Of a DNA stretch of 64,000 bases, positions 9,386-40,471 are shown in pieces (the first letter of the stretch is position 1; each line of letters starts with the position of its first letter). Position numbers and translations under genes: made by a program. Under the pieces are notes generated by a model that was given only the letters and a program-made list of their open reading frames with translations, was not told the origin of the DNA and searched no databases. Source of the DNA: Bacillota bacterium (GTDB taxonomy: Bacteria; Bacillota; Sulfobacillia; JACIYH01); contig JASEFA010000003.1 in assembly GCA_030019365.1 (NCBI GenBank), forward strand, positions 186,001 to 250,000. Reading direction: 5' to 3'.

Positions 9386-9442
9386 AAGCTGCTCAGCAGG
9401 AACCCCCATACGAAGGCCGAATATGATTCACGAGTTGGGACT

Positions 9443-9877
9443 ATGGCAGAGCCACGGGAAACGCTGGAATGGACGGTTGCCCTGTATGCCCGCCAGCCCG
9501 GGCGCGCCGCGGTGGCGACGGTGGCGGTGATCGGTTCGGCCGTTCTGGCCTGGTGGTGGTTCCACGAGACCTGGATGGTGGTGGCCACCCTGGTGGTGCT
9601 GGGCGGGGCGGTGGCACCCTACCTGTTTCCCATCAGATATCGCCTGGACGAGAAGGGAGTGAGGCTCAAGAACGGGTTGCTCTGGGATTTCCGCCCGTGG
9701 GACAGGTTTTTCGATTACCGCATCTTCCCCGATGCCGTGCAGCTTTACTTCGATCAGCGGGAGTTGCGCGGGCGCATCCTCAAGGGGCACCTTCTGTTTT
9801 TCGACCGGGAGCAGGTGCTGAGGGACCGGATCGTGGAGATGGTAACACGCAAGGTGGGTGCGAAAAAGGGGGGTTAG
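9443..9877 (+). CDS. Small membrane protein with PH-like C-terminal domain, first gene of the GlmL cluster
   Basis: I do not recognise a named family. The 144-residue protein has an N-terminal amphipathic stretch, two membrane helices (about 22-42 and 45-62) and a cytosolic beta-rich tail. The tail, with RYRLDEKGVRLKNGLLW and repeated aromatic residues, resembles bacterial PH-like domains after paired helices. It ends one base before the first GlmL-family gene, so co-translation is likely. That position suggests an anchor or accessory role for the ATPase pair, but this is inference. Confidence 0.7.
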   Translation: MAEPRETLEWTVALYARQPGRAAVATVAVIGSAVLAWWWFHETWMVVATLVVLGGAVAPYLFPIRYRLDEKGVRLKNGLLWDFRPWDRFFDYRIFPDAVQLYFDQRELRGRILKGHLLFFDREQVLRDRIVEMVTRKVGAKKGG

Positions 9878-9878
9878 A

Positions 9879-11783
9879 ATGAGCCGTAGTAGGCCGCGGG
9901 TCATCCTGGCGACGGACGTGGGGAGCACAACTACCAAGGCGATTCTCATCGAGGATCGGGGCGGCGAGTACCGCCTGGTGGGAAGGGGGGAGATGCCCAC
10001 CACAGTGGAGGCTCCCTGGGAAAACGTGATGATTGGAGTGCGCAAGTCCGTGCGGCGGCTCGAGGAACTCCTCGAACGCCGTTTTTTGGATTCCTCCGGT
10101 CGCCTCGTCCGCCCCGCCGCGGACGGCGAAGGGGTGGATTACTATGTTTCCACCTCCTCCGCGGGCGGTGGCCTGCAGATGATGGTGGCGGGGCTGGTGT
10201 CGAGCATAAGCGCAGCTTCCGCCAACCGGGCCGCCCTCGGTGCCGGTGCCGTTGTCCTGGACGTGATCGCCGTGGACGACGGGAGGTCCACCTCCGAGCA
10301 GATCAGCCGCATCACCGAGCTGCGGCCCGACATCATCCTCATGTCGGGGGGTGTGGACGGGGGGTCGGTATCCTACATCGCCGCCATCGCGGAGACCATC
10401 GTGCAGGCCAATCCCCAGCCGCGTTTCGGCGCCACCTACAAGCTCCCCCTGGTGTACGCGGGTAACCGCGATGCCCAGGACCTCATCCTGGGGGTGACGG
10501 GCTCTGAGCTGGACGTCCATCTGGTGGAGAATCTCCGTCCCCGGCACGACGTGGAGAACCTGGGCCCTGCCCGGGAGGCCATCCACGAGCTGTTCATGAA
10601 CCACGTGATGGCGCAGGCGCCCGGCTATGCCGAACTTATGGAGTGGGTGGACGTGACCATCATGCCCACCCCCGGCGCCGTGGGCCGCATCATCAGCCTG
10701 ATGGCCGAGCAGTACCGGGCCAACATCATCGGGGTCGACATCGGTGGCGCCACCACGGACGTGTTCTCCAGCTTCGAGGGTACCTTCACCCGCACGGTAA
10801 GCGCCAACCTGGGCATGTCCTATTCCATCTGCAACGTCCTGGAAGAGGCGAAAGTCGATAACATCCTGCGCTGGGTTCCCTTCGGGGTGGACGAGGTCAA
10901 GCTTTCCAACTGGATCGCCAACAAGATGGTGCGTCCCACCACCATCCCCATGACCCTGGAGATGCTGGTGCTGGAGCAGGCCCTGTCCAGGGAAGCCCTT
11001 CGTCTCTCCTTCTCCCACCACAAGAGCCTGGCCCGCAAGGTGGAGAAGGAGGAGGCCCGGGCTGCCTGGCACAGCGCCCAGCAGGAGATATTCCGGGCCT
11101 CCGGCCGCGAGATCATCGATATGAAGAAGCTGGATATGCTGGTGGGGTCGGGCGGTGTCCTCTCCCACGCCCCCCGGCGGCAGCAGGCGGCCATGATGCT
11201 CATCGATGCCTTCCAGCCCGAGGGCATCACCCAGCTGGCGGTGGACTCCATCTTCATGATGCCCCACCTGGGGGTGCTTTCCACCACCCATCCCGAGATC
11301 GCCGCCGAGGTATTCGACAAGGACTGCCTGATCCGCCTGGGCACCTGCATAGCCCCCTCGGGGAAGCTGCGGGAGGGGCAACCGGCGGTGGCGGTGCGGG
11401 CCCATCTCCCCGCAGGCGTGCAGGAAGAGAAGGTGGCTTTCGGCGATATCAGGCGCATTCCCCTGGACGTGGGGCAGACGGCAAAGGTGGAAGTGATTCC
11501 GGCCGGGGCCCTGGATGCCGGCGCCGGCAAGGGCCGCCGCCTGGAGGCCACCGTGCACGGGGGTCTGGTGGGGATCGTGATCGATGCCCGGGGCCGCCCT
11601 CTGGAACTGCCTTCGGAACCGGCCCGCCGGGTGCAGAAGCTCACCGAGTGGTTCGAGGCCTTGGACCTCTATCCTGGGGATCTGCTCCGCAAGTACCAGG
11701 CCGCCCATCCCGTGGGCAAGGCGCCCGTTCCCGGCAGGCCGGAAGGAGGGGAGAAGCGTGGCGGTCTCTTCTGGCGTCGCTGA
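9879..11783 (+). CDS. GlmL/MutL-family ASKHA ATPase, copy 1
   Basis: Belongs to the family annotated as glutamate mutase accessory protein GlmL/MutL, actin-like ATPases of unproven role. It has 634 residues from ATG 9879. The phosphate-1 loop TDVGSTTTKAIL is at about 12-23, phosphate-2 GVDIGGATTDVFS near 285-297, and the adenosine motif GSGGVLSHAPRR near 424-435. The segment YVSTSSAGGGLQMMVAG is shared by all three copies in this window. No glutamate mutase GlmS/GlmE subunit occurs here, so the usual product name should not be taken literally. The 3' end overlaps the partner gene by 26 nt. Confidence 0.9.
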   Translation: MSRSRPRVILATDVGSTTTKAILIEDRGGEYRLVGRGEMPTTVEAPWENVMIGVRKSVRRLEELLERRFLDSSGRLVRPAADGEGVDYYVSTSSAGGGLQMMVAGLVSSISAASANRAALGAGAVVLDVIAVDDGRSTSEQISRITELRPDIILMSGGVDGGSVSYIAAIAETIVQANPQPRFGATYKLPLVYAGNRDAQDLILGVTGSELDVHLVENLRPRHDVENLGPAREAIHELFMNHVMAQAPGYAELMEWVDVTIMPTPGAVGRIISLMAEQYRANIIGVDIGGATTDVFSSFEGTFTRTVSANLGMSYSICNVLEEAKVDNILRWVPFGVDEVKLSNWIANKMVRPTTIPMTLEMLVLEQALSREALRLSFSHHKSLARKVEKEEARAAWHSAQQEIFRASGREIIDMKKLDMLVGSGGVLSHAPRRQQAAMMLIDAFQPEGITQLAVDSIFMMPHLGVLSTTHPEIAAEVFDKDCLIRLGTCIAPSGKLREGQPAVAVRAHLPAGVQEEKVAFGDIRRIPLDVGQTAKVEVIPAGALDAGAGKGRRLEATVHGGLVGIVIDARGRPLELPSEPARRVQKLTEWFEALDLYPGDLLRKYQAAHPVGKAPVPGRPEGGEKRGGLFWRR

Positions 11784-13104
11784 TTACGTGATCCAGCGCG
11801 TGCGCAAGGTGCGCAAGCTGCCCCTGCCCGGGGAGGTCCTGGTAGGGCCGGGCGAGCGGGTGGAACCGGATACCCCGGTGGCCCGCATCAGCCTGCGGCC
11901 CGGCATCCCCTGGGTGCTGCCCGTGGCCCGCCTGCTGGGCATCGAGCCCGCCGACCTGGGCAAGGCCATGCTGGTAAAGGTGGGGGACCAGGTCAAGACC
12001 AAGCAGGTGATCGCGATCGCCGAGAAGGGCCTGTATGGTCGCAAGGAATACGAATCCCCCACCGACGGCATGGTCGAGGACATCTCCACGGCTTCGGGGC
12101 GGGTAATCGTCAGAGAAGAGTTTGGTCGCGAAGAACCCCCCGTCCAGGTGGACGTCGCCTTCGAGCTGGGGTGCCGGCCCAAGGACGTACCCAGGCACAT
12201 GATCACGCCCGTGGGCAAGGAAGTCAAGAAGGGTCAGATGATCGCCAAGAAGGGCGAGCAGGCGGCGTTCTTCACCAAGACCTGCCTGACCCCCGTCTCG
12301 GGTGTGATCGCCGAGGTCAACGCCCAGACCGGCATGGTGACCATTGCCAGGCCGTTCAAGGAAGTGGTGGTGAAGGCGTACATCAGCGGGGTGGTTACGG
12401 ATGTACTGCCCCGCCGGGGCGTGGTGGTGGAGGCTCCGGCCGTGCGCCTGACCGGGATCTTCGGCCTGGGCCGGGAAACCCACGGTCCCATCCAGGTGGT
12501 GGTCTCCTGCCCCGATGAGACGCTCACCGGGGACCTCATCGACGAAAAGTGCGCCGGGAAGATCGTGGTGGGGGGCGGTTACGCCACCAACGAGGCTCTG
12601 GTCAAGGCGCTTCAGGTGGGGGCGCGCGGGGTGGTGACCGGTACCGCAAACTACCTGGACCTGGTCCGCTCCCTGGGGGTGCGCCTGGGGGTGGGCATCA
12701 CCGGCCAGGAGGACATCGACATCACCGTGATCCTCATCGAGGGATTCGGGGGCCTGGCCATGCGCGAGCACGTCTTCCGCAGCCTCAAGGCCCTGGAGGG
12801 GCGGCTGGCTTCCATCAACGGAGCCACTCAGATCAGGGCGGGCGCCATCCGGCCGGAGATCGTGGTTCCCTTTCCCGACTACCAGGGGCCGGTGGTGGAG
12901 GAACAGGTGGCCGACGAGGAGTTGTGCCGCGGCCAGCGCGTACGGCTGATCACCGACCCTTACTTCGGGCGCCTGGGCCACATCGTTGAGATTCCCCGGC
13001 AGCCCATGGTGGCGGAGACGGAGGCGCGCGTCCCCATGGTGGAAGTGGCAGTGGACGGAGGGGAACGCGTCGTGGTCCCCAGGGCCAATGTGGAGCTTTT
13101 CTAG
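11758..13104 (+). CDS. Barrel-sandwich/KOW-like partner protein of GlmL, copy 1
   Basis: Unnamed family, 448 residues from GTG 11758 (preceded by GGAAGGAGGGGAG). The N-terminal half has three segments like barrel-sandwich hybrid (lipoyl/RnfC-type) folds: LPLPGEVLVGPGERVEPDT, VGDQVKTKQVIA with ESPTDGMVEDI, and VGKEVKKGQMIAKKG with TPVSGVIAEV. None has a biotin or lipoyl lysine motif. The middle has GKIVVGGGYATNEALVKAL, VILIEGFGGLAM and SINGATQIRAG, conserved with copies 2 and partly 3. The end, GQRVRLITDPYFGRLGHIVE, looks KOW-like. No signal peptide or membrane helix. Probably acts in the cytosol with the ATPase it overlaps. Confidence 0.85.
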   Translation: MAVSSGVADYVIQRVRKVRKLPLPGEVLVGPGERVEPDTPVARISLRPGIPWVLPVARLLGIEPADLGKAMLVKVGDQVKTKQVIAIAEKGLYGRKEYESPTDGMVEDISTASGRVIVREEFGREEPPVQVDVAFELGCRPKDVPRHMITPVGKEVKKGQMIAKKGEQAAFFTKTCLTPVSGVIAEVNAQTGMVTIARPFKEVVVKAYISGVVTDVLPRRGVVVEAPAVRLTGIFGLGRETHGPIQVVVSCPDETLTGDLIDEKCAGKIVVGGGYATNEALVKALQVGARGVVTGTANYLDLVRSLGVRLGVGITGQEDIDITVILIEGFGGLAMREHVFRSLKALEGRLASINGATQIRAGAIRPEIVVPFPDYQGPVVEEQVADEELCRGQRVRLITDPYFGRLGHIVEIPRQPMVAETEARVPMVEVAVDGGERVVVPRANVELF

Positions 13105-13146
13105 CGGCCGTGGCCCTGAAACGGCGGCCGCAGGGAGGTGGGGGCG

Positions 13147-13581
13147 GTGCCCCGCTGGCTCGATAACTGGATGATCTACGAGATCACGCCGCAGGAACGG
13201 GACCAGCTCATCGAGAAGCTGGCCCGGCTGGTGCGCCGCTTCGGGATGTACACCCCCGCCATATTCATGCTCGAGACAGGCAAGGATCTGAGCTGGCTGG
13301 GCAGCCAGTTCATGCACCTCTTCTCTCCCGTGATCACCCTGGTCTGGGGAGATTTTGAGAAGCTGGCCTTTCTCCTGGAGGACAAGCAGAACGTGGAGCG
13401 CCTGATCCAGCGCATCGAGGAGCTGTCAGAGGAAGAGAAAAGGCAGGCCCGGGAGCGCCGGGCGGCGGCCCGTCCCGGGCGCCCGGCCCCCAAGGACAAC
13501 CGTGCCCCGGGGGATGACCGGCCCGCGGCCCGCGAGGACAACCGGGCCGGAGAGCGGAGGGATAAGAGTCGTGCCCGCTGA
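13147..13581 (+). CDS. Small hydrophilic-tailed protein between the two GlmL pairs
   Basis: Not recognised. About 144 residues from GTG 13147, with GGGAGGTG 6 nt upstream; GTG 13138 is an alternative. The first 100 residues are helical and amphipathic: WMIYEITPQERDQLIEKLAR, then a hydrophobic FMHLFSPVITLVWGDFEKLA and RLIQRIEELSEEE. The last 45 are highly charged, rich in Arg, Pro and Asp and probably disordered. It overlaps the second ATPase start by 11 nt, so it belongs to the same operon and may tether or regulate that pair. Confidence 0.75.
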   Translation: MPRWLDNWMIYEITPQERDQLIEKLARLVRRFGMYTPAIFMLETGKDLSWLGSQFMHLFSPVITLVWGDFEKLAFLLEDKQNVERLIQRIEELSEEEKRQARERRAAARPGRPAPKDNRAPGDDRPAAREDNRAGERRDKSRAR

Positions 13582-15388
13582 GATCACATCGGTGCTGGCC
13601 ACCGACTGCGGCAGCACCACCACCAAGGCCATCCTCATCGACAAAGTGGGCGACGAGTACCGGCTGGTGGTGCGGGGGGAAGCCCCCACCACGGTGGAGC
13701 GTCCCTTCGAGGACGTAACCATGGGAGTGCGCAACGCCGTCCGCGAGGTGGAGGAGCTAACCGGGAGGAAGTTTCTCTCGGAGGAAGGGATAATCACCCC
13801 CCGGCAACCCGACGGCAGCGGGGTGGATACTTACCTTTCCACCTCCAGTGCCGGGGGCGGGCTGCAGATGATGGTGGCGGGGGTGGTCAAGAGCATGACC
13901 ACCGAGAGTGCCCAGCGGGCCGCCCTGGGGGCGGGGGCCATCGTGATGGACGCGGTGGCCATCGACGACGGGCGCAAGACCCACGAGAAGATCGCCCTCA
14001 TCCGCCACCTGCGCCCGGACATGATCCTGCTCTCGGGTGGAGTGGACGGGGGCACCGTCACCCACGTGGTGCAGATCGCCGAGCTGCTGGCGGCGGCCGA
14101 GCCCCGGCCCCGGCTGGGCATTGGTTTCCGGCTGCCGGTGATTTATGCGGGCAACCGGGATGCCCGTCCCCACATGGAGCGCATCCTGGGGGAGCGTTTC
14201 GACCTGCGCACGGTGGACAACCTGCGCCCGGTGCTGGAGCAGGAGGTGCTGGCGCCGGCGCGGGAGGAGATCCACAACCTGTTCATGGAGCACGTGATGG
14301 CCCAGGCCCCCGGCTACAACAGGCTCATGACCTGGACGGACGCGCCCATCATGCCCACGCCCGCGGCCGTGGGACTGGGCATGCAGACGGCGGCGCGGGA
14401 GTATGGCCTGAACGTGATCGGGGTGGACATCGGGGGGGCGACCACGGACGTCTTTTCCGTGTACGGGGAGCGTTTCGTGCGCACGGTGAGCGCCAACCTG
14501 GGCATGTCCTATTCCATCTGCAACGTCTTGCTGGAAGCGGGGCTTCCCAACATCGTACGCTGGATTCCCTTCCCGGTTGACGAGGCCGACATCCGCAACC
14601 GCATCCGGAACAAGATGATCCGTCCCACCACCGTACCCCAGACCCTGGAGGAGCTGGCCATCGAGCAGGGCCTGGCGCGGGAGGCCCTGCGCCTTGCCTT
14701 CGAGCACCACAAGACCCTGGCGGTGGGGTTGAAGGGGGTGCAGCGGCAGCGCACCATCGACGACACCTTCACCCAGGTGGGGGCGGAGACGTACATCGAC
14801 CTCATGGAGCTGGGTCTGCTCATAGGCTCGGGCGGGGTGCTCTCCCATGCTCCCCGGCGGGTGCAGGCGGCCCTGATGATGCTGGACGCGTTTCAGCCGG
14901 AAGGTGTCACCCGGCTGGCGGTGGATTCCATCTTCATGATGCCGCAGCTGGGGGTGCTGTCCACGGTACACGAGCAGGCGGCCGCGCAGGTGTTCGACCG
15001 CGACTGCCTGATCCACCTGGGCACGGCGGTGGCCCCGGTGGGGCAGGGCAGGGAAGGGGAGCCGTGCCTGGTGGTGACCCTGCACCTGCCGGGGGGAAAG
15101 GTGGTCAAAGAGGAGCTGGCGTACGGCCAGATCCGGCGCCTCCCGCTGGAGGTGGGGGAGGAGGCGGAAGCCGAGATCCATCCTGCCCGCGGGTTCGACG
15201 TGGGGCGGGGCCGGGGGCATGCCCTGCGCACCATCCTGCATGGGGGAGTGGCGGGGATCATTCTGGATTGCCGGGGACGGCCTCTGGTGCTGTCCTCCGA
15301 GCCCGCCCGGCGCTGGCAGAAGCTGCGGGAATGGGCTCTGGCCGTCGACCTGTATCCGCGCCAGTTCCTGGAGAAGCTGGGTGGTTAG
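13571..15388 (+). CDS. GlmL/MutL-family ASKHA ATPase, copy 2
   Basis: A paralogue of copy 1, with 605 residues from GTG 13571. The same three nucleotide motifs are present: TDCGSTTTKAIL near 11-22, VDIGGATTDVFSVYG near 283, and GSGGVLSHAPRR near 419. It shares SANLGMSYSICNVL and the segment FQPEGVTRLAVDSIFMMPQL with copy 1. The similarity runs end to end, indicating tandem duplication of the whole pair rather than domain shuffling. It is followed after 12 bases by its own partner gene, keeping the ATPase-then-partner order. Confidence 0.9.
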   Translation: MPAEITSVLATDCGSTTTKAILIDKVGDEYRLVVRGEAPTTVERPFEDVTMGVRNAVREVEELTGRKFLSEEGIITPRQPDGSGVDTYLSTSSAGGGLQMMVAGVVKSMTTESAQRAALGAGAIVMDAVAIDDGRKTHEKIALIRHLRPDMILLSGGVDGGTVTHVVQIAELLAAAEPRPRLGIGFRLPVIYAGNRDARPHMERILGERFDLRTVDNLRPVLEQEVLAPAREEIHNLFMEHVMAQAPGYNRLMTWTDAPIMPTPAAVGLGMQTAAREYGLNVIGVDIGGATTDVFSVYGERFVRTVSANLGMSYSICNVLLEAGLPNIVRWIPFPVDEADIRNRIRNKMIRPTTVPQTLEELAIEQGLAREALRLAFEHHKTLAVGLKGVQRQRTIDDTFTQVGAETYIDLMELGLLIGSGGVLSHAPRRVQAALMMLDAFQPEGVTRLAVDSIFMMPQLGVLSTVHEQAAAQVFDRDCLIHLGTAVAPVGQGREGEPCLVVTLHLPGGKVVKEELAYGQIRRLPLEVGEEAEAEIHPARGFDVGRGRGHALRTILHGGVAGIILDCRGRPLVLSSEPARRWQKLREWALAVDLYPRQFLEKLGG

Positions 15389-15400
15389 GGAGGGAACGAC

Positions 15401-16627
15401 ATGGCCCACGCATACACTCCCGGTCTGAAAGTCACAGAGTACGCCGTCATCCGGCGGCAGCGCCGGTTGCCCATCCCCGGCCGGGTGCTGGTGGAGCGGG
15501 GGCAGAGGGTGGGTCCCGATGCCGTGGTGGCCGAGGCATCTTTGCCCGGCAATCCAAACACGGTGAACGCGGCCGCCGCCCTGGGCGCGGACCCTTCCGA
15601 CCTGCCCCACCTGATGGTCAAGAAGGTGGGCGATCCCGTGCGGAAGGGGGAGGTGATCGCCCGTTATCGGGCGCTGTTTGGACTGGTCTCGAGCAAGTGC
15701 ACTTCTCCCGTGGACGGGGCTGTCGAGTCGGTATCCGAGGTCACCGGGCAGGTGATCGTGCGGGAGCCGCCCATTCCCGTGCAGGTGAGGGCGTACCTGG
15801 AGGGCGCGGTAGCCGAGGTGATACCCCGGGAAGGGGTAGTGGTGGAGTCTCAGGGCGCGTTCATCCAGGGCATCTTCGGGGTGGGCGGGGAGACGTACGG
15901 GGAGATCCAGGTGGTGGTGGCCAACCCTGAAGAGGTGCTGGAGGCTTCCGCCATCCTTCCTGCCCACCGGGGCAAGGTGCTGGTGGGGGGATCGCTGGTG
16001 ACCGGTGCCGCCCTGCGCCGGGCGGTGGAAGTGGGGGCCCGCGGAGTGGTGGCGGGCGGGATCATCGACCGCGACCTGATCGGGTTCCTGGGCCATGACA
16101 TCGGGGTGGCCATCACCGGACACGAAGACATCCCCATCACCGTGATCGTAACCGAGGGTTTCGGCCAGATGACCATGGCCCACCGCACTTTCGAATTGCT
16201 GCAGTCTCTCGGCGGCCGCATGGCCTCCATCAACGGCGCCACCCAGATCCGGGCCGGAGTGATGCGCCCGGAGATCGTGGTACCCGTCAGCCGCCGGCCG
16301 TCGGCCGCCGCCCGCCCCGCCGCGGGCAGCACCTCTGCGGGCGATGCTGCCAGCGGTGGGCGTGCCTCTGCGGGCGATGCCGCCAGCAGTGGGCTCACCT
16401 CTGCGGGCCAGGCTGGTAGTGGGGGGGTGTCCCAGGGTCTGGTGCCCGGGACGCGCATCCGCATCATCCGCGAACCCTACTTCGGCCGGCTGGCCCACGT
16501 GACCGAGCTGCCTCCCGAGCTGCAGGTCATCGAAACTGAGGCCAAGGTGCGCATCCTGCACGCCCGTCTGGATTCGGGCGAACTCGTGACCGTACCCCGC
16601 GCCAACGTCGAAATCATCGAAGACTAA
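15401..16627 (+). CDS. Barrel-sandwich/KOW-like partner protein of GlmL, copy 2
   Basis: A paralogue of the copy 1 partner, with 408 residues from ATG 15401. RRLPIPGRVLVERGQRVGP and VGDPVRKGEVIARY with TSPVDGAVESV form the barrel-sandwich part. It lacks the separate VGKEV-type block of copy 1, which explains its shorter length. GKVLVGGSLVTGAALRRAV, TVIVTEGFGQMTM and SINGATQIRAG are conserved, and the KOW-like end GTRIRIIREPYFGRLAHVTE is present. Between SINGATQIRAG and that end sits a Ser/Ala/Gly linker made of three 11-residue repeats, absent from copy 1. Confidence 0.86.
   Translation: MAHAYTPGLKVTEYAVIRRQRRLPIPGRVLVERGQRVGPDAVVAEASLPGNPNTVNAAAALGADPSDLPHLMVKKVGDPVRKGEVIARYRALFGLVSSKCTSPVDGAVESVSEVTGQVIVREPPIPVQVRAYLEGAVAEVIPREGVVVESQGAFIQGIFGVGGETYGEIQVVVANPEEVLEASAILPAHRGKVLVGGSLVTGAALRRAVEVGARGVVAGGIIDRDLIGFLGHDIGVAITGHEDIPITVIVTEGFGQMTMAHRTFELLQSLGGRMASINGATQIRAGVMRPEIVVPVSRRPSAAARPAAGSTSAGDAASGGRASAGDAASSGLTSAGQAGSGGVSQGLVPGTRIRIIREPYFGRLAHVTELPPELQVIETEAKVRILHARLDSGELVTVPRANVEIIED
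16328..16426 (+). repeat. Three tandem 33-nt in-frame repeats in the copy 2 partner gene
   Basis: Units 16328-16360, 16361-16393 and 16394-16426 each encode 11 residues: STSAGDAASGG, RASAGDAASSG and LTSAGQAGSGG. The shared nucleotide core is CCTCTGCGGGC, followed by a diverging second half. Units 1 and 2 are near-identical and unit 3 is more diverged, as expected from stepwise slippage or unequal exchange. The repeats form the linker before the KOW-like domain. Confidence 0.9.
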
Positions 16628-28796: not shown

Positions 28797-29609
28797 GTGT
28801 CTTACCAGCTGGCGGCAGATCCGTACCTCGGCATCTTCGTCAAAGGCTCCTTCGTAGCGCTCATCATCTTCCTCGTCTATGCGATCCTGGTCTACTTCTT
28901 TATCCAGCGGGCGCGGGCGGGGCTTCCCATTCCCACCATCCGTAAGATCGCGGGACTGGAAGCTCTGGACGAGGCCATCGGCCGCGCCACCGAGATGGGG
29001 CGGCCGGTGAACTACGTGCCGGGCATCGGAGCATCGTACAACATGCAGACCATCGCTTCATACGCCATGCTCGGGCACGTGGCCAAGCGGACGGCGCAAT
29101 ACGACACCCGCTTTATCTTCACGTGCGCTGATCCTGTCGTGCTCCCCATCGCCGAGGAGATCATCCGGCAGTCCTACCTGGAGGCGGGGCGGCCCGACGC
29201 CTACAACCCGGACGACGTCAGGTTCCTCTCTGACTGGCAGTTCGGGTACTGCTCGGGCGTGCTGGGCATCTACCAGCGCGAGCGGCCGGCGGCCAACATC
29301 CTGTTCGGCGCCTTCTGGGCGGAATCCCTGATCTTCGCCGAAGAGGGCAACCGCACCGGGTCCATCCAGATCGGGGCCACCGCCAACATGCACCAGATTC
29401 CCTTCTTCGTGGCGGCCTGCGACTACGCCCTGATCGGCGAAGAGATGTACGCGGCCTCGGCTTACCTGGCCAAGGAGCCCGTGCTGTACGGCACCGTGGT
29501 ATCCCAGGACTGGATGCGCATCGCCTTCTTCGCGGTGATCATCATCGGGACTGTCTTCCAGATCGTCCAGGGGAAGGCCAACGTCATCACCAGCATCTTC
29601 AGCAAGTAG
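28797..29609 (+). CDS. Membrane-anchored protein, DUF6754-like (membrane operon gene 1)
   Basis: Function unknown; I recall similar sequences under DUF6754, not checked. The 270-residue protein has one membrane helix at each end (about 17-37 and 242-260) and a soluble middle of about 200 residues. That middle contains GRPVNYVPGIGASYNMQTIA, FIFTCADPVVLPIAEEI, SDWQFGYCSGVLGIY, and NRTGSIQIGATANMHQIPF. GTG start with a perfect AAGGAGGTGA. Codon use is typical of the window. First of four genes spaced 27-30 bases apart. Confidence 0.8.
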   Translation: MSYQLAADPYLGIFVKGSFVALIIFLVYAILVYFFIQRARAGLPIPTIRKIAGLEALDEAIGRATEMGRPVNYVPGIGASYNMQTIASYAMLGHVAKRTAQYDTRFIFTCADPVVLPIAEEIIRQSYLEAGRPDAYNPDDVRFLSDWQFGYCSGVLGIYQRERPAANILFGAFWAESLIFAEEGNRTGSIQIGATANMHQIPFFVAACDYALIGEEMYAASAYLAKEPVLYGTVVSQDWMRIAFFAVIIIGTVFQIVQGKANVITSIFSK

Positions 29610-29636
29610 GTCCGGCCCGAGAAGGGAGGTGTCATA

Positions 29637-30257
29637 ATGCGGAAAGAGCTTCCGACCATCATCTGCATCGTGATGGCGGCGGTCGTGGTCCTCTCCATGT
29701 ACGTCTTCCCCATCAACAACCTCAAGTGGATGGACATGTTCGATAACTGGAACAACCTGCTCTATTACCTGGCCATGGGCCTCGGCCTCATCAACCTGAC
29801 CCGCCTCCACGTGATGGCGGTGGTGAAGCGGCGTCCCAACTGGGTGTACAGCATCTGGCTACTGGTGTTCATGTGGGGATACTTCATCCTGGCCATGATC
29901 CAGACCGTGGACGGCCCGCAGGCGGACTGGGTGTTCCAGAACTTCATGACCCCCATCGACTCCACCGTGTTCGCCCTGCTGGCCTTCTACATCACCTCGG
30001 CCTCCTTCCGGGCCTTCCGGGCCAGGACCCTGGAAGCGACCCTGATGCTGCTCACCGCGTTCCTCGTCCTCCTGGGAACCTCTCCTCTGGGCGACCTCAT
30101 CATCCCGGGCTGGACCAGCGTAAAGGACTGGATCCTGAGCTTCCCCAACACGGGCGGGCAGCGCGGTATCACCATCGGTATCTACCTGGGTGCCCTGGCG
30201 GCGGCCCTGCGCGTCATGCTGGGCCTGGAGCGGGCGTACCTGGGCGGCGCGCGGTAA
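29637..30257 (+). CDS. Polytopic membrane protein (membrane operon gene 2)
   Basis: Not recognised. 206 residues with about six predicted helices (near 7-25, 41-60, 73-92, 106-125, 132-150 and 180-198). The loop WNNLLYYLAMGLGLINLTRL and an amphipathic tail with GGQRGITIGIYLG are notable. No transporter signature or cofactor motif is visible. ATG 29637 follows GGGAGG. Its tight spacing to genes 1 and 3 argues for a single membrane complex. Confidence 0.78.
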   Translation: MRKELPTIICIVMAAVVVLSMYVFPINNLKWMDMFDNWNNLLYYLAMGLGLINLTRLHVMAVVKRRPNWVYSIWLLVFMWGYFILAMIQTVDGPQADWVFQNFMTPIDSTVFALLAFYITSASFRAFRARTLEATLMLLTAFLVLLGTSPLGDLIIPGWTSVKDWILSFPNTGGQRGITIGIYLGALAAALRVMLGLERAYLGGAR

Positions 30258-30287
30258 AGATTCTGCCGGGAAAGGAGGTGCAACGTC

Positions 30288-31106
30288 GTGAGAGCACTGG
30301 TAGATCTGGACCGGCGGTGGATTTTCCTGGTGGTGTTCATCCTCATTGCCCTGGTGGTTATCTTCCCGTTGGGGCTGCCCGTACGGGTTACCCCCATGAC
30401 CACGGCGATGTACAACTATATCGACCAGCTCCCGGCGGGGTCGGTGCTCTGGCTGGGGCTTGACTACGGACCCAGCGTGGCCGGGGAGCTGAATCCCCAG
30501 CTTACTGCCGTAGTGAACCACGCTTTCCGCAAGAACCTGCGCATCATCACCTACACCATGTGGCAGACCCAGGGCACCATCGGGCGAAACATCATCAACA
30601 AGCTGCTGAAAGAGTATAACAAAGAGTACGGGAAGGACTGGGTGGACCTGGGCTTCAAGCCGGGTGGCGATACCAACCTCCGTCTCATGACCTCCAGCCT
30701 CAAGGAGGCGGCGGCAGGGGTGGACTACCAGGGCAAGTCCCTGGACGAGTTCCCCCTGACCAAGGAAGTGAAGGCCCTCGACAAGCCCTATGTGGCCCTC
30801 GTCGTCGACTTCCCGGCCGGTAGTCCTGGTGCTCCCCAGTACCTGGCCATCGTCACCGAGGTCAAGGGCGTGAAGATGGGCGTGGGGCAGATTCAGATGT
30901 CGGTGGCCGACTCCATGCAGTTCGTGCAGTCCGGGCAGTACACCGGTATGATCCCCGGCCTGCGGGGAGCGGCCGAGTACGAGAAGCTGATCGGCAAGCC
31001 TGCTGCCGCCATCCGGGCCATGGACGGGCAGACGCTGGCCTCGGCCTTCGTGGGCCTGCTCATCATCCTGGGCAACATCATCTACTTCAGCACCCGGAGC
31101 CGTTAG
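30288..31106 (+). CDS. Membrane-anchored protein with soluble core (membrane operon gene 3)
   Basis: Not recognised. 272 residues with the same architecture as gene 1: a helix near 11-30, a soluble domain of about 200 residues, and a C-terminal helix near 247-266. The soluble part has GSVLWLGLDYGPSVAGELNP, NLRIITYTMWQTQG, PYVALVVDFPAGSPGAPQYL and SMQFVQSGQYTGMIPGLRGA. The alternation of strand and helix suggests an alpha/beta domain. GTG 30288 follows GGAAAGGAGGTG. Possibly a distant relative of gene 1, judged from shape only. Confidence 0.78.
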   Translation: MRALVDLDRRWIFLVVFILIALVVIFPLGLPVRVTPMTTAMYNYIDQLPAGSVLWLGLDYGPSVAGELNPQLTAVVNHAFRKNLRIITYTMWQTQGTIGRNIINKLLKEYNKEYGKDWVDLGFKPGGDTNLRLMTSSLKEAAAGVDYQGKSLDEFPLTKEVKALDKPYVALVVDFPAGSPGAPQYLAIVTEVKGVKMGVGQIQMSVADSMQFVQSGQYTGMIPGLRGAAEYEKLIGKPAAAIRAMDGQTLASAFVGLLIILGNIIYFSTRSR

Positions 31107-31136
31107 GCGAGGCTGGACAGGTAAGGGGGTGAATTC

Positions 31137-31739
31137 ATGTCCACTGATGTGGGTGTCTGGCTACAGGTGATATGTACCATCGGCGTGCTGACTTACCTGT
31201 ACAAGGAGAACTGGTTCTGGCGCATCTTCGAGTACGCCATCGTGGCCGGCTTCACCGGGTACAGCCTGGCCTACGGCTACCACAACTACATCAAGCCCTT
31301 CATCGGAGAGAAGATGATCAAGGAGGGCCAGTGGTCCTTCCTGATCCCGCTCATCATGGGCATCCTGCTGTACGCCCGGTTCGTCTCGGGGTGGGGCTGG
31401 CTGGGCCGCTACGCCATGGCCTACATGATCGGCTACGGCGCCGGCTACACCCTGGGCTTCGACATCAAGCCCCTGCTGGGGCAGATCAGGGCCAGCTTCA
31501 TCAGCCTGAACAGCTTCAACAACATCATCCTGTGGCTGTTCGTGGTGACCTCGCTGGCATACTTCTTCTTCACGGTGAGCAGGGAGGCCCCGAGCATGAA
31601 GGGCCTGAGCACGGTGGGGAAGTGGGCCATCATGATCGCCCTGGGGGCCTCGTTCGGCAACACCATCCTGTACCGCTACAACCTGCTTTATCCCCGCATG
31701 AAGCTCATCTTCAACACCTGGTTGGGGCTGGGAGGCTGA
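31137..31739 (+). CDS. Polytopic membrane protein (membrane operon gene 4)
   Basis: Not recognised. 200 residues, about six helices, rich in Tyr, Phe and Gly, with YSLAYGYHNYIKPFIGEKM, MAYMIGYGAGYTLGF and NSFNNIILWLFVVTSLAYFF. ATG 31137 follows AAGGGGGTGA. Last gene of the operon: a strong hairpin follows 15 bases after its stop. As for genes 2 and 3, no catalytic motif is visible. Confidence 0.78.
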   Translation: MSTDVGVWLQVICTIGVLTYLYKENWFWRIFEYAIVAGFTGYSLAYGYHNYIKPFIGEKMIKEGQWSFLIPLIMGILLYARFVSGWGWLGRYAMAYMIGYGAGYTLGFDIKPLLGQIRASFISLNSFNNIILWLFVVTSLAYFFFTVSREAPSMKGLSTVGKWAIMIALGASFGNTILYRYNLLYPRMKLIFNTWLGLGG

Positions 31740-31754
31740 ATCGAGCAACCCGGC

Positions 31755-31788
31755 GGGGCCGTCCGGCGACGGGCGGCCCCGTTTCCTT
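31755..31788 (+). terminator. Intrinsic terminator-like hairpin after the membrane operon
   Basis: GGGGCCGTCC (31755-31764) pairs with GGGCGGCCCC (31771-31780), 10 bp including one G-T pair, around the loop GGCGAC. GTTTCCTT follows. The T-tract is short and interrupted, so termination may be partial, allowing read-through into the ABC transporter genes. Confidence 0.65.
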
Positions 31789-31894
31789 CGGGCCCATGTC
31801 ATCGTGCGGCGGGTTCTCTCGGTCCCCGGCGGGGGCGGGGTGCTGCAGGGGCGTGGCGGTACGACGGCGGGGCAGGCGCCGAGGGGGCGAGACG

Positions 31895-32602
31895 GTGGGA
31901 CTGCTGCTGCGCGCGGTGAACCTGCGCCGGGTGTTCGTGCAGGGCAGGCGGGTGGTGCACGCCCTCGCCGGGGTCAGCCTGGCGGTGGCGGCGGGGGAGT
32001 TCCTGGTCGTCACGGGGCCGTCCGGTTGCGGGAAGACCACCCTGCTCAACATCCTGACCGGGATGGACCGTCCCTCGGCGGGTGAGGTGGTGCTGGGGGA
32101 TGTGGCTTACAGCACTCTGAGCGAGGACGGGCTCTCCGCCCTGCGGCGGGAGCGCCTGGGGTATGTGTTCCAGTTTTACAACCTGTTGCCCCACCTGACC
32201 GCCCTGGAGAACGTGGCCCTGCCCCTGCGTTTCCGGGGGTGGGACGCTGCCCGGGCGGCCCGCCGGGCCAGGGAGATCCTGGAGGAGGTGGGACTGGGAG
32301 CCCGCATGCGCCACCGCCCCGGCCAGCTTTCCGGCGGCGAGCAGCAGCGGGTGGCCATCGCCCGGGCGGTGGCCCACGATCCCGACCTGGTGCTCGCAGA
32401 CGAACCCACCGGCAACCTGGACTCGCGTGCGGCTGCCCGGGTGGCCGATCTGTTCGCCCAGATCAACGGCCGGGGACGGACCCTGGTGGTGGTCAGCCAC
32501 GATCCCGCCCTGGTGGAACGGGCGGAGAAGGTGCTGGCCATGCGAGATGGGGCCGTTGCCGGTTCCGCCAGCAGCCGTTGCGGTGGGCAACCTGAGGCGT
32601 AG
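31895..32602 (+). CDS. ABC transporter ATPase of LolD/MacB type, first copy
   Basis: A 235-residue nucleotide-binding subunit. Walker A GPSGCGKTTLLNILTGMDRP near residue 43, Q-loop VFQFYNLLPHLTALENVALP, signature LSGGEQQRVAIARAVAHDP near 146, Walker B LVLADEPTGNLDS and switch VVVSHDPAL. The Q-loop and LDS pattern are those of the LolD/MacB/FtsE class that drives FtsX-like permeases. I choose GTG 31895 with GAGGGGG at 7 nt; an in-frame ATG at 31796 adds residues without similarity. No permease is adjacent: the next gene is a partner-family protein. Confidence 0.92.
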   Translation: MGLLLRAVNLRRVFVQGRRVVHALAGVSLAVAAGEFLVVTGPSGCGKTTLLNILTGMDRPSAGEVVLGDVAYSTLSEDGLSALRRERLGYVFQFYNLLPHLTALENVALPLRFRGWDAARAARRAREILEEVGLGARMRHRPGQLSGGEQQRVAIARAVAHDPDLVLADEPTGNLDSRAAARVADLFAQINGRGRTLVVVSHDPALVERAEKVLAMRDGAVAGSASSRCGGQPEA

Positions 32603-32656
32603 CGGGGAGGAGCTGGTGATGGGGAGGGCCGCGGTGCCCGGAAGGGGCGGCTGAAC

Positions 32657-33790
32657 ATGAGGGTGGAGCGGGTGTGGGGTGCGGGAGGGCGAGCCGCCTG
32701 CCGCCCCGGTGACGAAGTGGATCCGGCCAGCGTGGTGGGGTACGGGCCCGAGCCGCCGCCCCGGGCCGTCCTCCTGGAGGCCGATGCCGGGCGCACGGTA
32801 GCCACTCTGGTGCACCGGGTGGGCGACCGGGTGGGGCGGGGCGAAACCCTGGCCTTTTACTCCTTCATGTTCGGCCTGGGATATCGGGAGTTCGTTTCCC
32901 CGGTGGACGGCCGGGTGGTGGCAATGGAGCCAGGCCGGGTGCTGGTGCAGCCCTTCCCCCCTGAGGTAAAGGCCCTGGTGAGGGGCCGGGTGGAAGAGGT
33001 GAGGGAGGGCGGTGCGGTGATCGGGGTGGAGGGCACGCGGCTGGGAGCGGGGGCCGCCTGGGGGCCCGCCCGGGGGGGCGAGTTGATGGTGTTGCCCAAT
33101 GGGGAAGTGGCGGCCGCCCACCTGGGCCCCGCACACACCGGACGCGTGGTGGTGGGCGGCTGGGCGGCCCGGCAAGCCGTGGAGCGGGCCTTTGCCCTGG
33201 GGGTAGCGGCTCTCATCGTGGGGGGCGCGGCCCAGGCGGCCGTGGACTGGCTCGATGCCGTGCGCGGCCAGCTGTCAGTCGACGATTACCTGGCCCGGGT
33301 GTACGAAGGCCCCCGGGGCGGGGCGGGTGAACCCCTGTGGCAGGAACGGGAGGGCCTGCCCCTGACCCTGGTAACCCTGGAGGGATTCGGCCCGCTGCCC
33401 GTACCGGAGGAGGAATACCGCCTGCTGGCCGGGGCACAGGGCGCCTGGTGCTATGTGAGCGGCGAGGAATCCGTGCCTCCCTGGGTGGGGATAGTCGCGG
33501 CCGGCGAGACCGCCGCGCGGGGTGAGAGCGCCGGACCGGTGGGGCCGGGGGCCAGGGTGCGGCTGACCGGCCTGCGCCGGCAGGGCGAAGAAGGCACGGT
33601 GGTGGAGGTGCTGCCCGAACCCGTGGTGCTGGAAACTGAGGTGGCGGTGCCGGCCGCCCGCGTCAGGCTGCACGACGGCAGGCTGGTAGTGGTGCCCCTG
33701 GCCAACCTTCAGCCGTCTGGTTGCGAGCCGGGACGGCCAGACGGGCCGGGCGCCAGCCGGGGCCCGGGCACGGGGTCGCTGGCGAGGTGA
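32657..33790 (+). CDS. Divergent fourth copy of the GlmL partner protein, without its own ATPase
   Basis: 377 residues from ATG 32657. It follows the partner family in order: VGDRVGRGETLAFYSFMFGL with EFVSPVDGRVVAMEPGRVLV (barrel-sandwich part, aligning with copy 2), VKALVRGRVEEVREGGAVIG, GRVVVGGWAARQAVERAFAL, LVTLEGFGPLPVP, and a KOW-like end GARVRLTGLRRQGEEGTVVE. The SINGATQIRAG block of copies 1 and 2 is lost. No GlmL gene is adjacent; it sits between two ABC ATPase genes. No signal peptide or membrane helix, so it is not a classical membrane-fusion protein. Confidence 0.82.
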   Translation: MRVERVWGAGGRAACRPGDEVDPASVVGYGPEPPPRAVLLEADAGRTVATLVHRVGDRVGRGETLAFYSFMFGLGYREFVSPVDGRVVAMEPGRVLVQPFPPEVKALVRGRVEEVREGGAVIGVEGTRLGAGAAWGPARGGELMVLPNGEVAAAHLGPAHTGRVVVGGWAARQAVERAFALGVAALIVGGAAQAAVDWLDAVRGQLSVDDYLARVYEGPRGGAGEPLWQEREGLPLTLVTLEGFGPLPVPEEEYRLLAGAQGAWCYVSGEESVPPWVGIVAAGETAARGESAGPVGPGARVRLTGLRRQGEEGTVVEVLPEPVVLETEVAVPAARVRLHDGRLVVVPLANLQPSGCEPGRPDGPGASRGPGTGSLAR

Positions 33791-33797
33791 GTCGGGC

Positions 33798-34565
33798 ATG
33801 ACGGTGCTGGAGGGGAGGGGTCTTTCCCGCAGGTACGTGCTGGGGGAAGAGATCTGGGCGGTGAAAGACGTCGACCTGGCCCTTGCCCCCGGTGAGCTGG
33901 TGGTGGTGGCAGGTCCGTCTGGTTGCGGGAAGACCACCCTGCTTTCCCTCCTGGGGGCCATGGATCGCCCCACCTCTGGAGAGGTGTACCTGCAGGGCCG
34001 GGGGTACTCCCGCCTTGGCCCCGCGGGTCTGGCCCGGGTACGGCGGCAGCATGTGGGCTTCGTGTTTCAGGGATTCCACCTCATCCCCCACCTGCGGGCG
34101 TGGGAGAACGTGGTCCTGCCCCTGCGCATGACTGGTGTCAGGGGGCGGGCCGCGCGCCGCCGCGCCCTGGAGCTGCTGGAGAGCGTGGGCCTGGCGGAGC
34201 GGGCCCAGCACCTGCCGGGTGAGCTTTCCGGGGGCGAGCAGCAGCGGGTGGCGGTGGCCCGGGCCCTGGCCAACCGTCCCCTGGTGGTGCTGGCCGACGA
34301 GCCCACGGGCAACCTGGACGTTGCCTCGGGACGGGCCATAGCGGCCCTCTTCGACCGGTTCCGGCGGGAGGGGACGACCTTCCTGGTGGTGACCCACCAC
34401 CGGGAGACCTTCGCCCCCTGTGCCACCCGGGTGCTGGAGATGCGGGACGGTCGCCTTTACGGTCCCGCCGATCCCACCGCGGGTGCCGGCGGGCCTGCCG
34501 CCCGGGGGGCGGGTGTCAGCTCGGAGGGCACGGCCGGGTCAGGAGGGACCGGCCATGGCCGGTAG
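33798..34565 (+). CDS. ABC transporter ATPase of LolD/MacB type, second copy
   Basis: 255 residues from ATG 33798. Walker A GPSGCGKTTLLSLLGAMDRP near 38, Q-loop VFQGFHLIPHLRAWENVVLP, signature LSGGEQQRVAVARALANRP, Walker B LVVLADEPTGNLDV, switch LVVTHHRETF. The last 30 residues are Gly/Ala-rich. The stop overlaps the first permease by 11 nt, so this ATPase most likely powers the two following permeases. It is related to the first copy but clearly divergent, indicating an old duplication. Confidence 0.93.
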   Translation: MTVLEGRGLSRRYVLGEEIWAVKDVDLALAPGELVVVAGPSGCGKTTLLSLLGAMDRPTSGEVYLQGRGYSRLGPAGLARVRRQHVGFVFQGFHLIPHLRAWENVVLPLRMTGVRGRAARRRALELLESVGLAERAQHLPGELSGGEQQRVAVARALANRPLVVLADEPTGNLDVASGRAIAALFDRFRREGTTFLVVTHHRETFAPCATRVLEMRDGRLYGPADPTAGAGGPAARGAGVSSEGTAGSGGTGHGR

Positions 34566-37531: not shown

Positions 37532-39352
37532 ATGACCGCGTGCGTTTTGGCCCTGGACGTAGGGAGCACCACCACCAAGGCCACCCTCTTCCGGGAGGAG
37601 GGGGAAGGGTGGCAACTGGCCGGGCAGGCCAACGCCCCCACCACGGTGGAACGCCCGGTGGAGGACGTGATGGTGGGGGTGAGGGAGAGCCTCCGCCGCC
37701 TGGAGCAGGCTACGGGCGAGATCCTCCTGGACGAAAGAGGGGAGCTCATCCGGCCCCACCAGGGCGACCGGGGCGTGAACCTGGCCGTGGCCACCTCCAG
37801 CGCCGGGGGTGGCCTGCAGATGCTGGTGGCGGGGGTGATGCGCGAGATCACGGCCGAGAGCGCCGAACGGGCGGCCCTGGGGGCGGGGGCCATCGTGGTG
37901 GACGTGCTGGCCATCGACGACGGGCGCACCCCGGTGGAGAAGGTGCACGCCATCCGCAACCTGCGCCCGGACATGGTGCTGCTGTCGGGTGGGACCGATG
38001 GCGGCGGGGTGTCCCACGTGGTGGCCCTGGCTGAGTCCCTGCGGGCGGCCCGCCCCCGGCCCCGATTCGGGGAAGGGTTCCGCCTGCCGGTGGTGTACGC
38101 GGGGAACGTGCGCGCCCGGCCTCACGTGGAGGAGCAACTGGGTGCGGATTTCCTGGTTTCCACGGTGCCCAACCTGCGTCCCGTGCTGGAGAGGGAGGAA
38201 CCGGAGCCGGCCCGGCAGGAGATCCTGCGCCTGTTCCTGGAGCACGTCATGCAGCATGCTCCCGGCTACCCCCGGTTGCTGGAGTGGACGGGGGGGAGCA
38301 TCCTTCCCACTCCGGTGGCAGCGGGTCACGCCGTGCAGAGGGTGGCAGAGAGATTGCGCAGCAATGTGCTGGCGGTGGACATCGGAGGCGCCACCACCGA
38401 CGTCTTCTCCGTGGCGGGGGGTGCCTTCCACCGCACCGTCTCCGCCAACCTGGGCCTGGCCTACAGCAGCCCGCACGTGTTCGCCCGGGCCAGCTTCGCC
38501 AACCTGGTCCGCTGGCTGCCCTTTTCCGTGTCCGAAGACGAGCTGCGCAACTGGATCGGCAACAAGATGATCCGTCCCACCCTGCTGCCCCAGACGGCGG
38601 AGGAGCTCATGGTGGAGCACGCCCTGGCCCGGGAGGCCATGCGCCTCTCCTTCCGCGAGCACCAGCGTCTGGCCAGGGAGCTCAAGGGCGTCCAGATGCA
38701 GCGCACCATTGCCGACATTTTCTCACCCCGGCCCTCGGGTGCCCCGGTGGTCGAGATGCGCACGGTGGACGCCATCGTGGGCTCGGGCGGCGTGATATCC
38801 CACGCTCCCCGGGGTCAGCAGGCCCTGCTCATGCTGCTGGACGGGCTGGAGCCGGAGGGGATCACCGAGCTTTACTGGGACCGGGGTTTCCTGCTTCCCC
38901 ACCTGGGAGCCCTGGGGGATGCCGACCCGGACATGGCCATGGGCCTCCTGGACCGGACCCTGGTGCACGTGGCCACCATCATTGCCCCGGTGGCGCCGCG
39001 GGCGCGGCCCACCACCCAGATCGCGGAGATGGTGATCAGGCGGCGGGGTACCGTGGGCAGGGAAATCATCCGGCAGGGGGACTTCCGGATCTTCCCCTGG
39101 TACCGGGGAGAAGTGCTCGAGGTGGAGCTGCGTCCTGCCCGCACCGTGGACGTGGGCGAAGGACCGGGCAAGCTGGTGCGGGCCCGGTTGGAGGGGGGCG
39201 AGTACGGGGTTATCCTGGATGCCCGGGGACGGCCCCTGTCTCCTCCCGAAGATTCCATGGAGCGCCGCGACTGGCTGCTGGGGATCATGCAGTTCCTGGA
39301 GGCCTACCCCAAGAGTGCCCTGGACGGCCTGCGGGCCGGCGCCGGGCGGTAG
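37532..39352 (+). CDS. GlmL/MutL-family ASKHA ATPase, copy 3
   Basis: 606 residues from ATG 37532. LDVGSTTTKATLF at about 8-20, VDIGGATTDVFSVAGG near 281, GSGGVISHAPRGQQALLML near 415. Copies 1 and 2 read SANLGMSYSICNVL where this has SANLGLAYSSPHVF, and it lacks their SIFMMP segment, so copies 1 and 2 are closer to each other than to copy 3. It is followed by its own partner gene after 15 bases. Probably in one transcript with the ABC genes upstream. Confidence 0.9.
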   Translation: MTACVLALDVGSTTTKATLFREEGEGWQLAGQANAPTTVERPVEDVMVGVRESLRRLEQATGEILLDERGELIRPHQGDRGVNLAVATSSAGGGLQMLVAGVMREITAESAERAALGAGAIVVDVLAIDDGRTPVEKVHAIRNLRPDMVLLSGGTDGGGVSHVVALAESLRAARPRPRFGEGFRLPVVYAGNVRARPHVEEQLGADFLVSTVPNLRPVLEREEPEPARQEILRLFLEHVMQHAPGYPRLLEWTGGSILPTPVAAGHAVQRVAERLRSNVLAVDIGGATTDVFSVAGGAFHRTVSANLGLAYSSPHVFARASFANLVRWLPFSVSEDELRNWIGNKMIRPTLLPQTAEELMVEHALAREAMRLSFREHQRLARELKGVQMQRTIADIFSPRPSGAPVVEMRTVDAIVGSGGVISHAPRGQQALLMLLDGLEPEGITELYWDRGFLLPHLGALGDADPDMAMGLLDRTLVHVATIIAPVAPRARPTTQIAEMVIRRRGTVGREIIRQGDFRIFPWYRGEVLEVELRPARTVDVGEGPGKLVRARLEGGEYGVILDARGRPLSPPEDSMERRDWLLGIMQFLEAYPKSALDGLRAGAGR

Positions 39353-39367
39353 GGCGAGGTGGGCAAG

Positions 39368-40471
39368 ATGAGCGACCAGACTGTCATCAGACGGGAGCGA
39401 CGTCTCCCCTTCCCGGGAGAGGTGCTGGTGGAAGTGGGCCAGGTGGTGGAGCCCCAGACCGTGGTTGCCCGCACCACCGTGATGCCGGGCATGCCGTATG
39501 TGGTGGAGGTGGCCCGCGAGTTGGGGGTCGAACGGGGAGAGGTGGGGCGGTACCTGCTCAAGGTGCCCGGGGAGAGGGTGGCCACCGGTGAGGTTCTGGC
39601 CCGGGCGGACAGGGGGTTGGGGGGTGTCCGGGAGTGCCGCAGCCCCTGCGAGGGAGAAGTGGAGACGATCCTGGTGGCCCACGGGCAGGTGCTGGTGCGG
39701 GAGGATGCCCGCAAGGCCGCCCCCGTGGTGTGGGTGGATGTGGCCCGTCGCCTGGACGTGCCGCCCCACCGCATGCGCGCTTTCCTCCGGGTCAGGGAGG
39801 GGGAAGAGGTCTCCGCGGGCCAGCTCATCGCCCAGGGCATGGAGGGGCTGATGGCAGACCGGGTGTATGCGCCCGCGGGCGGGGTGGTGGAGGCGGTGGA
39901 TACCCGCACGGGCGGGGTGGCCATCCGCCGGCCCCACCGGCCGGCCGAGGTGGACGCTTACCTGGCGGGGCGGGTGGTGGAGGTCTTCCCCGAATGGGGG
40001 GCGGCCGTGGCCGCTCTGGGTCACCAGGTGACGGGCGTGTTCGGCATCGGGGGACAGGCGTACGGCATCCTGCGGGCGGCCGTGTCGAATGCGGAAGAGG
40101 TATTGGACGCCGGGGCGATCTCCGACGATGACGCGGGGAAGGTGCTGCTGGGCGGTGCCCTGGTGACCCTGGACGCCCTCCGGCGAGCCCGCCAGGCCGG
40201 GGTGCGGGGCATCATCAGCGGGGGTGCCCAGCAGGGGGATCTGGTTGCCTTCACCGGCCGGGAGATGGTGGTGGGGATCACCGGGCAGGAGCCGGTGCTT
40301 ACGGTGGTGATCACCACCGGGTTCGGCAGGCAGGCCATGGACGCCGGTCTGTTCGCCCTGCTGGCGTCCTGCGGCGGGCGCCCGGTTTCCCTGGACGGCA
40401 CCACGCAGGTGCGGGCGGGCGCCGTGCGCCCCGAGGTGCTCGTCCCCGTGGAGCCCGCCCCCGCCCCCTGA
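39368..40471 (+). CDS. Barrel-sandwich partner protein of GlmL, copy 3 (no KOW-like end)
   Basis: 367 residues from ATG 39368, with GAGGTG 7 nt upstream (GTG 39359 is an alternative). RRLPFPGEVLVEVGQVVEP, VPGERVATGEVLARA, VREGEEVSAGQLIAQG and RVYAPAGGVVEAVDTRTGGV make up the barrel-sandwich part in the long form, as in copy 1. GKVLLGGALVTLDALRRAR, VGITGQEPVLTVVITTGFG and SLDGTTQVRAGAVRPEVLVP correspond to the conserved middle. The protein stops there, so the KOW-like domain of copies 1, 2 and 4 is missing. Confidence 0.86.
   Translation: MSDQTVIRRERRLPFPGEVLVEVGQVVEPQTVVARTTVMPGMPYVVEVARELGVERGEVGRYLLKVPGERVATGEVLARADRGLGGVRECRSPCEGEVETILVAHGQVLVREDARKAAPVVWVDVARRLDVPPHRMRAFLRVREGEEVSAGQLIAQGMEGLMADRVYAPAGGVVEAVDTRTGGVAIRRPHRPAEVDAYLAGRVVEVFPEWGAAVAALGHQVTGVFGIGGQAYGILRAAVSNAEEVLDAGAISDDDAGKVLLGGALVTLDALRRARQAGVRGIISGGAQQGDLVAFTGREMVVGITGQEPVLTVVITTGFGRQAMDAGLFALLASCGGRPVSLDGTTQVRAGAVRPEVLVPVEPAPAP

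Follow-up and report, generated by a model that had tools for sequence, protein, structure and literature searches.

The window, the whole 64,000-nucleotide stretch of DNA analyzed here, carries at positions 28797-31739 four genes (g1-g4) that run in one direction on the plus strand. Their coordinates and strand are those that a sequence-only reading of this DNA had given; the products measure 270, 206, 272 and 200 aa, and the intergenic gaps for g1/g2, g2/g3 and g3/g4 measure 27, 30 and 30 bases, matching the 27-30 bases that it reported. In line with the strong ribosome sites that it noted, a purine-rich site precedes every one of the four starts (AAGGAGG, GGGAGG, AAAGGAGG and AAGGGGG, respectively). 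As for the shared terminator that it proposed, a strong hairpin does lie 3' of g4; this hairpin has a weak T tract, though, and is absent from the output of a consensus terminator scan. That this hairpin serves as the shared terminator of g1-g4 is plausible. Table 1 lists these features together with the ATPase, partner and small-protein genes discussed below.

Table 1. Coordinates, within the window, of g1-g4 and of the ATPase, partner and small-protein genes.
Feature	Position	Strand	Remarks
K9, small two-TM protein, upstream gene of the module	9443..9877	+	orthologues directly upstream of c7/MutL or g1 in several phyla
GlmL-like (MutL) ASKHA ATPase, first copy	9858..11783	+	PF13941, E 2.5e-121
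Partner protein, first copy	11758..13104	+	partner profile 589 bits; RnfC_N-like barrel-sandwich match
c7, small protein (~100 aa core)	13138..13581	+	c7 profile 123 bits
GlmL-like (MutL) ASKHA ATPase, second copy	13502..15388	+	PF13941, E 1.4e-127
Partner protein, second copy	15401..16627	+	partner profile 543 bits
g1	28797..29609	+	270 aa; TM helix, predicted cytosolic alpha/beta core (~50-227), TM helix
g2	29637..30257	+	206 aa; predicted six-TM protein, from profile and hydropathy
g3	30288..31106	+	272 aa; TM helix, predicted extracytoplasmic alpha/beta core (~34-237), TM helix
g4	31137..31739	+	200 aa; predicted six-TM protein, from hydropathy
GC-rich hairpin after g4, possible terminator	31749..31792	+	-35.7 kcal/mol, z -2.6
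Diverged partner paralogue among ABC genes	32657..33790	+	partner profile 333 bits
Third GlmL-like ATPase, ABC/FtsX neighbourhood	37532..39352	+	PF13941, E 7.4e-116
Diverged partner paralogue paired with third ATPase	39359..40471	+	partner profile 401 bits

The product of g1 is a full-length match to DUF6754 (PF20539; E 9e-98, 326.9 bits against a gathering cut-off of 27). The earlier description of all four proteins as uncharacterized therefore holds only for g2, g3 and g4, for which no Pfam or NCBIfam family scores above cut-off. Neither g2 nor g4 matches a transporter family, and no significant homology was found between g2-g4. Structure models of g1 and g3 (pLDDT 93.7 and 96.0) each comprise a TM helix, six beta-alpha units and a second TM helix, which bears out the architecture of helix, alpha/beta core of about 200 residues and helix read from the sequence; g2 and g4 are multi-spanning, with hydropathy consistent with the six helices assigned to them. 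Charge bias around the TM helices (the positive-inside rule) predicts a cytosolic core for g1, a core outside the membrane for g3, both ends of g2 inside (N-in/C-in) and both ends of g4 outside (N-out/C-out). The g1 proteins of other phyla have an additional N-terminal region ahead of TM1 with a signal-peptide-like start, and this region scores above the fibronectin type III cut-off in 1 of 10 g1 members scanned and just below it in 3 more. These features agree with the predicted placement of the g1 N-terminus outside the cell.

The g1 and g3 models present an identical order of secondary-structure elements in agreeing register, and they have PDB chains in common to which they align along corresponding segments (Sir2, 1ma3, and malonyl-CoA reductase, 8aeo, among others); their profile-profile comparison (hhalign) is not significant, with P 0.021 and a probability of 2%. 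Searches with the two models return generic Rossmann-like matches and no clear relative. The g1 core aligns to Sir2 with Z 11.3 and to transhydrogenase domain III with Z 9.4-10.1, and PGK (Z 10.7) and RCK (Z 9.9) come close to these scores; for the g3 core, Sir2 gives Z 8.6 and a subunit of CODH/ACS gives Z 8.5, and the best Foldseek E values for g1 and g3 are 0.01 and 0.002, respectively. Profile searches found no solved-structure homologue of g1-g4. Conserved residues of g1 include GRATEMG, D209 and E215-E216. Conservation is lower at the C-terminal edge of the sheet, the classic cofactor edge, than at the other edge, and 167 of 177 shifts do as well or better; because the conserved residues are not gathered at the cofactor edge, a reading of g1 as an NAD(P) enzyme was dropped.

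Searched with profiles made from the window genes, the fetched loci showed the block with its gene order unchanged. More than 560 relatives turned up when one genome was scanned for each species, and the 80 loci kept come from Symbiobacterium-like Bacillota, WOR-3, Zixibacteria, Eisenbacteria, Fermentibacteria, Poribacteria, Planctomycetota, Armatimonadota and others. With 36 copies in the host phylum, about 100 more in other phyla and a fixed gene order, g1-g4 are real genes. An intact same-strand run of g1-g2-g3-g4 is found for 117 of 137 collected g1 genes, with median gaps inside the runs of 13-18 bases, so the proposal that the four genes form one unit holds among these genomes. Nine of the 137 g1 genes lie at contig ends, and most of the remaining non-intact cases resemble broken gene calls; genes outside the window were called by a simple ORF method, and many of the genomes are incomplete MAGs. 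A search for g1 in 14 well-known control genomes found it absent from all 14.

The ATPase that accompanies g1-g4, here termed MutL, contains both phosphate motifs, DxGSTTTK and DIGGATTD, in 38 of 38 full-length copies. Every copy scored lies below the NCBIfam cut-offs for GlmL (212-224 against 475) and glmL_fam (155-163 against 204). GlmL is thought to be a chaperone or assembly factor for glutamate mutase, and glutamate mutase E, its client, is absent from the host genome and scores above cut-off in 3 of 38 module genomes. We therefore regard MutL as GlmL-like and not as GlmL itself, and a reading of the module built on this client was rejected, as the mutase is mostly absent. MutL additionally gives a weak MreB-like_C match (E 0.0011). 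The protein encoded beside it, the partner, contains RnfC_N-like barrel-sandwich stretches according to profile matches, as well as weak KOW-like and RNA-polymerase-hybrid-like similarity; the open reading frame of its first copy in the window opens at 11584, and homology starts at about 11758. K9 and c7 have no Pfam match.

The sequence-only reading had placed g1-g4 just upstream of, and near, an ABC/GlmL gene group. In that region (31896-37499, between g4 and the third MutL), two ABC ATPase and two FtsX-type permease genes flank a diverged partner paralogue. The MutL-partner set at 32.6-40.5 kb, embedded in ABC/FtsX genes, consists of more diverged paralogues, with partner scores of 401 and 333 bits versus 589 and 543 bits for the copies at 9.4-16.6 kb. 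In the nearest relatives of the host (loci L071-L074), MutL-partner pairs lie directly 3' of g4. Here we depart from the sequence-only reading: g1-g4 probably belong with the MutL-partner genes at 9.4-16.6 kb and not with the closer pair at 37.5-40.5 kb.

Co-occurrence across genomes connects g1 with the partner in three phyla. Among 299 genomes sampled from the host phylum, g1 (DUF6754) is present in 25, the partner in 24 and both in 23 (Fisher p 5e-31), such that the partner occurs in 23 of 25 g1 genomes versus 1 of 274 others. Of 121 Armatimonadota genomes, 103 carry g1 and 108 the partner, and 101 carry the two together (p 1.7e-9); in the 11 with neither, no MutL scores above cut-off. In the Planctomycetota, 30 of 119 genomes carry g1, 27 the partner and 26 both (p 6e-21). 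These p-values are inflated by shared ancestry, but the pattern recurs in three phyla, and the distribution is patchy in one of them. Loci mostly from other phyla led to 49 genomes with g1, and 45 of these have the partner. Genomes with g1 and without the partner are G312, G314, G328, G334 and four from the Planctomycetota, some of which are perhaps incomplete. The predicted co-occurrence of g1-g4 with GlmL-partner pairs is thus borne out in the host phylum and similarly in two others; neither a wide distribution of g1-g4 without the pair nor a match to a known complex was found.

Gene order extends the association, and the assignment of g1-g4, MutL, the partner and usually K9 and c7 to one eight-gene module is well supported. 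The fullest order, seen in FCB-type phyla, Planctomycetota and Armatimonadota, is K9 - c7 - MutL - partner - g1 - g2 - g3 - g4, in which K9 is about 150 aa long with two TM helices and c7 is about 100 aa long. The nearest relatives of the host have K9 - g1-g4 - MutL - partner - c7 - MutL - partner. The genes travel as two blocks, K9-c7-MutL-partner and g1-g4, that are sometimes separated, as in the window, where K9, c7 and two MutL-partner pairs occupy 9443-16627 and g1-g4 stand apart. In several Armatimonadota, K9-c7 directly precede g1 and MutL-partner lie elsewhere. A MutL-partner pair, or one of its members, lies within 6 kb of g1-g4 in 29 of the 69 loci with adequate flanks. ABC genes are occasional neighbours of the module, and the PF13941 protein is its constant ATPase. 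Further MutL-partner paralogue pairs (L154-L159) have ABC-type or large (~570-600 aa) neighbours, which suggests a use of these pairs in further membrane systems as well.

Several arrangements of individual loci deserve mention. In two WOR-3-type loci, the partner gene (L169, 4604-5728; L170, 7208-8332) lies near a topoisomerase-like gene with no recognized MutL adjoining; one of these two genomes (G323) has MutL elsewhere. At L191 (G310:C1:380000-399000), MutL occurs as two opposite-strand pieces, 2073-3458 (+) and 8836-9720 (-), both containing a 110-base inverted repeat (92%), and in the relative L194 the MutL gene is undivided. Likewise, one genome of the Armatimonadota (L192, L193) has MutL in two opposite pieces 48 kb apart, with a 342-base inverted repeat (98%). 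Inversion of a DNA segment may lie behind these split genes, or else faulty assembly. Upstream of the module in many FCB-type loci (L092, L094, L103, L104, L107, L110, L112, L115, L123, L136, L138, L141, L144) are glycine cleavage genes, gcvT-H-PA-PB in the fullest; genes in these loci often overlap or almost touch, and some have a lipoate ligase gene downstream of the module. As a control, gcvP was counted in the host phylum and occurs in 21 of 25 g1 genomes versus 173 of 274 others (p 0.047); because this association is weak, we treat the glycine cleavage link as a lead only.

Copy numbers bear on how the two blocks may work together. The 29 genomes with exactly one partner gene hold 1-6 copies of g1, and more than one in 79% of cases; hence many membrane complexes seem to rely on a single ATPase unit. 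The sequence-only reading had proposed that the four proteins form one complex in fixed ratios; the partner gene, for its part, often accompanies several cassettes as a single copy. From these counts, such genomes look like cases of a single energizing or maintaining unit for several complexes. The genome of locus L075 (G303) carries 11 DUF6754 genes in a 1.4 Mb assembly, an unusually high dose for that size.

Our preferred reading, a tentative one to which we give somewhat less than an even chance, is that g1-g4 form the membrane part of an ATP-energized machine, most likely for transport, in which MutL and the partner act from the cytosol and K9 and c7 take part. The four proteins would assemble in the membrane as a single complex that exposes the g1 core to the cytosol and the g3 core to the exterior, and MutL and the partner would dock on its cytosolic face. 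ATP-driven cycles of MutL, transmitted via the partner, would energize this complex, whose output would most likely be the movement of a small molecule or an envelope precursor across the membrane. K9 and c7 may be membrane anchors or adaptors. Where a cell has several paralogous g1-g4 complexes, these would have a single ATPase unit in common, and what they act on would differ.

Almost as probable as an energized machine, though also to be taken with some doubt, is that MutL-partner act as a chaperone: the pair would be an ATP-dependent unit that folds, assembles or reactivates g1-g4, and the complex itself would use no ATP. The membership of MutL in the GlmL/Hsp70-actin fold group fits such a role, as do the provision of one MutL-partner pair for several cassettes and the position of other MutL-partner paralogues beside ABC transporters, as expected of a general accessory. 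Against it stand the rarity of the known client, glutamate mutase E, among the 38 module genomes tested and the MutL scores well under the NCBIfam GlmL cut-offs, and K9 and c7 would be left without an obvious place.

We consider it unlikely that the module is a membrane sensor, in which the g3 core would bind an outside signal, g1 would relay it inward and MutL-partner would be the output. The opposite placement of two similarly built cores would suit a sensor, and some WOR-3-type loci have neighbours that resemble DUF4388/roadblock regulators by sequence; the loci, however, contain no kinase, cyclase, HTH or receiver domain as a constant member, and the very weak Pfam match of g2 to 7TMR-DISM (E 0.03), which points the same way, is far below cut-off. 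Less probable again is an envelope or cytoskeletal scaffold built of MutL that polymerizes like actin and is anchored by g1-g4, K9 and c7. Its ASKHA fold, the MreB-like_C match and the Fn3-like outside domain on g1 are compatible with this arrangement, but multiple divergent cassettes per genome fit poorly with one scaffold, and the module loci showed no consistent association with genes for division or shape. The least credible explanation, that the genes share ancestry or a genome neighbourhood without joint function, draws on the relatedness of the sampled genomes within each phylum and is opposed by the adjacency of the parts in several phyla with differing local order, by their patchy yet matched presence in Planctomycetota and by the lack of above-cut-off MutL in the 11 Armatimonadota genomes without g1 and partner.

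It is conceivable, although we would not count on it, that the module represents a new class of membrane machine: four proteins in one complex, whose alpha/beta cores face the two sides of the membrane, would be energized by an ASKHA-fold (actin/Hsp70-like) ATPase through a barrel-sandwich coupling protein, and several paralogous complexes would draw on the same ATPase unit. In composition, we rate the module as categorically new. A literature search, with most subscription journals beyond its reach, found DUF6754 named in no paper, and neither a described system with these parts nor a relevant paper. None of the eight module proteins matched the PADLOC profiles of anti-phage defence, and a defence reading was rejected on this ground. 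Most of the sampled Armatimonadota have the module, and its occurrence is patchy in Planctomycetota, in the host phylum and in many candidate phyla; it ties to the membrane a family of ATPases that is known elsewhere as an accessory of a mutase. A transport function, if the module has one, would draw its power from the ASKHA-type fold of MutL, which is not known to drive membrane transport.

In comparison with known systems, g1 is a full-length DUF6754 member (327 bits) of a family itself without function, and its three constant neighbours belong to no family; DUF6754 and three unnamed families gain a defined partner set. The g1 core aligns with Sir2 and transhydrogenase domain III, which have the DHS-like NAD/FAD-binding fold, and the g3 core with Sir2 and a CODH/ACS subunit, but many unrelated Rossmann-like chains lie within 1-2 Z of these, and g1 and g3 lack the cofactor motif. 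MutL has the ATPase fold and phosphate motifs in common with the GlmL/MutL accessory of methylaspartate mutase (PF13941, NF040745), whereas it is about 150 residues longer, falls under the NCBIfam cut-offs and is paired with the partner and membrane genes in genomes that usually lack glutamate mutase. The partner shares RnfC_N-like stretches with the RnfC/NqrA barrel-sandwich proteins but matches no Fe-S or flavin domain of RnfC. Group II ECF transporters have a shared energizing module, in which one ATPase unit serves several membrane modules. Their ATPases are an ABC-type pair, in contrast to the ASKHA-type ATPase (PF13941) here, and the module membrane proteins match neither EcfT nor S components; copy numbers nevertheless suggest the same layout of one ATPase unit per genome with several membrane modules.
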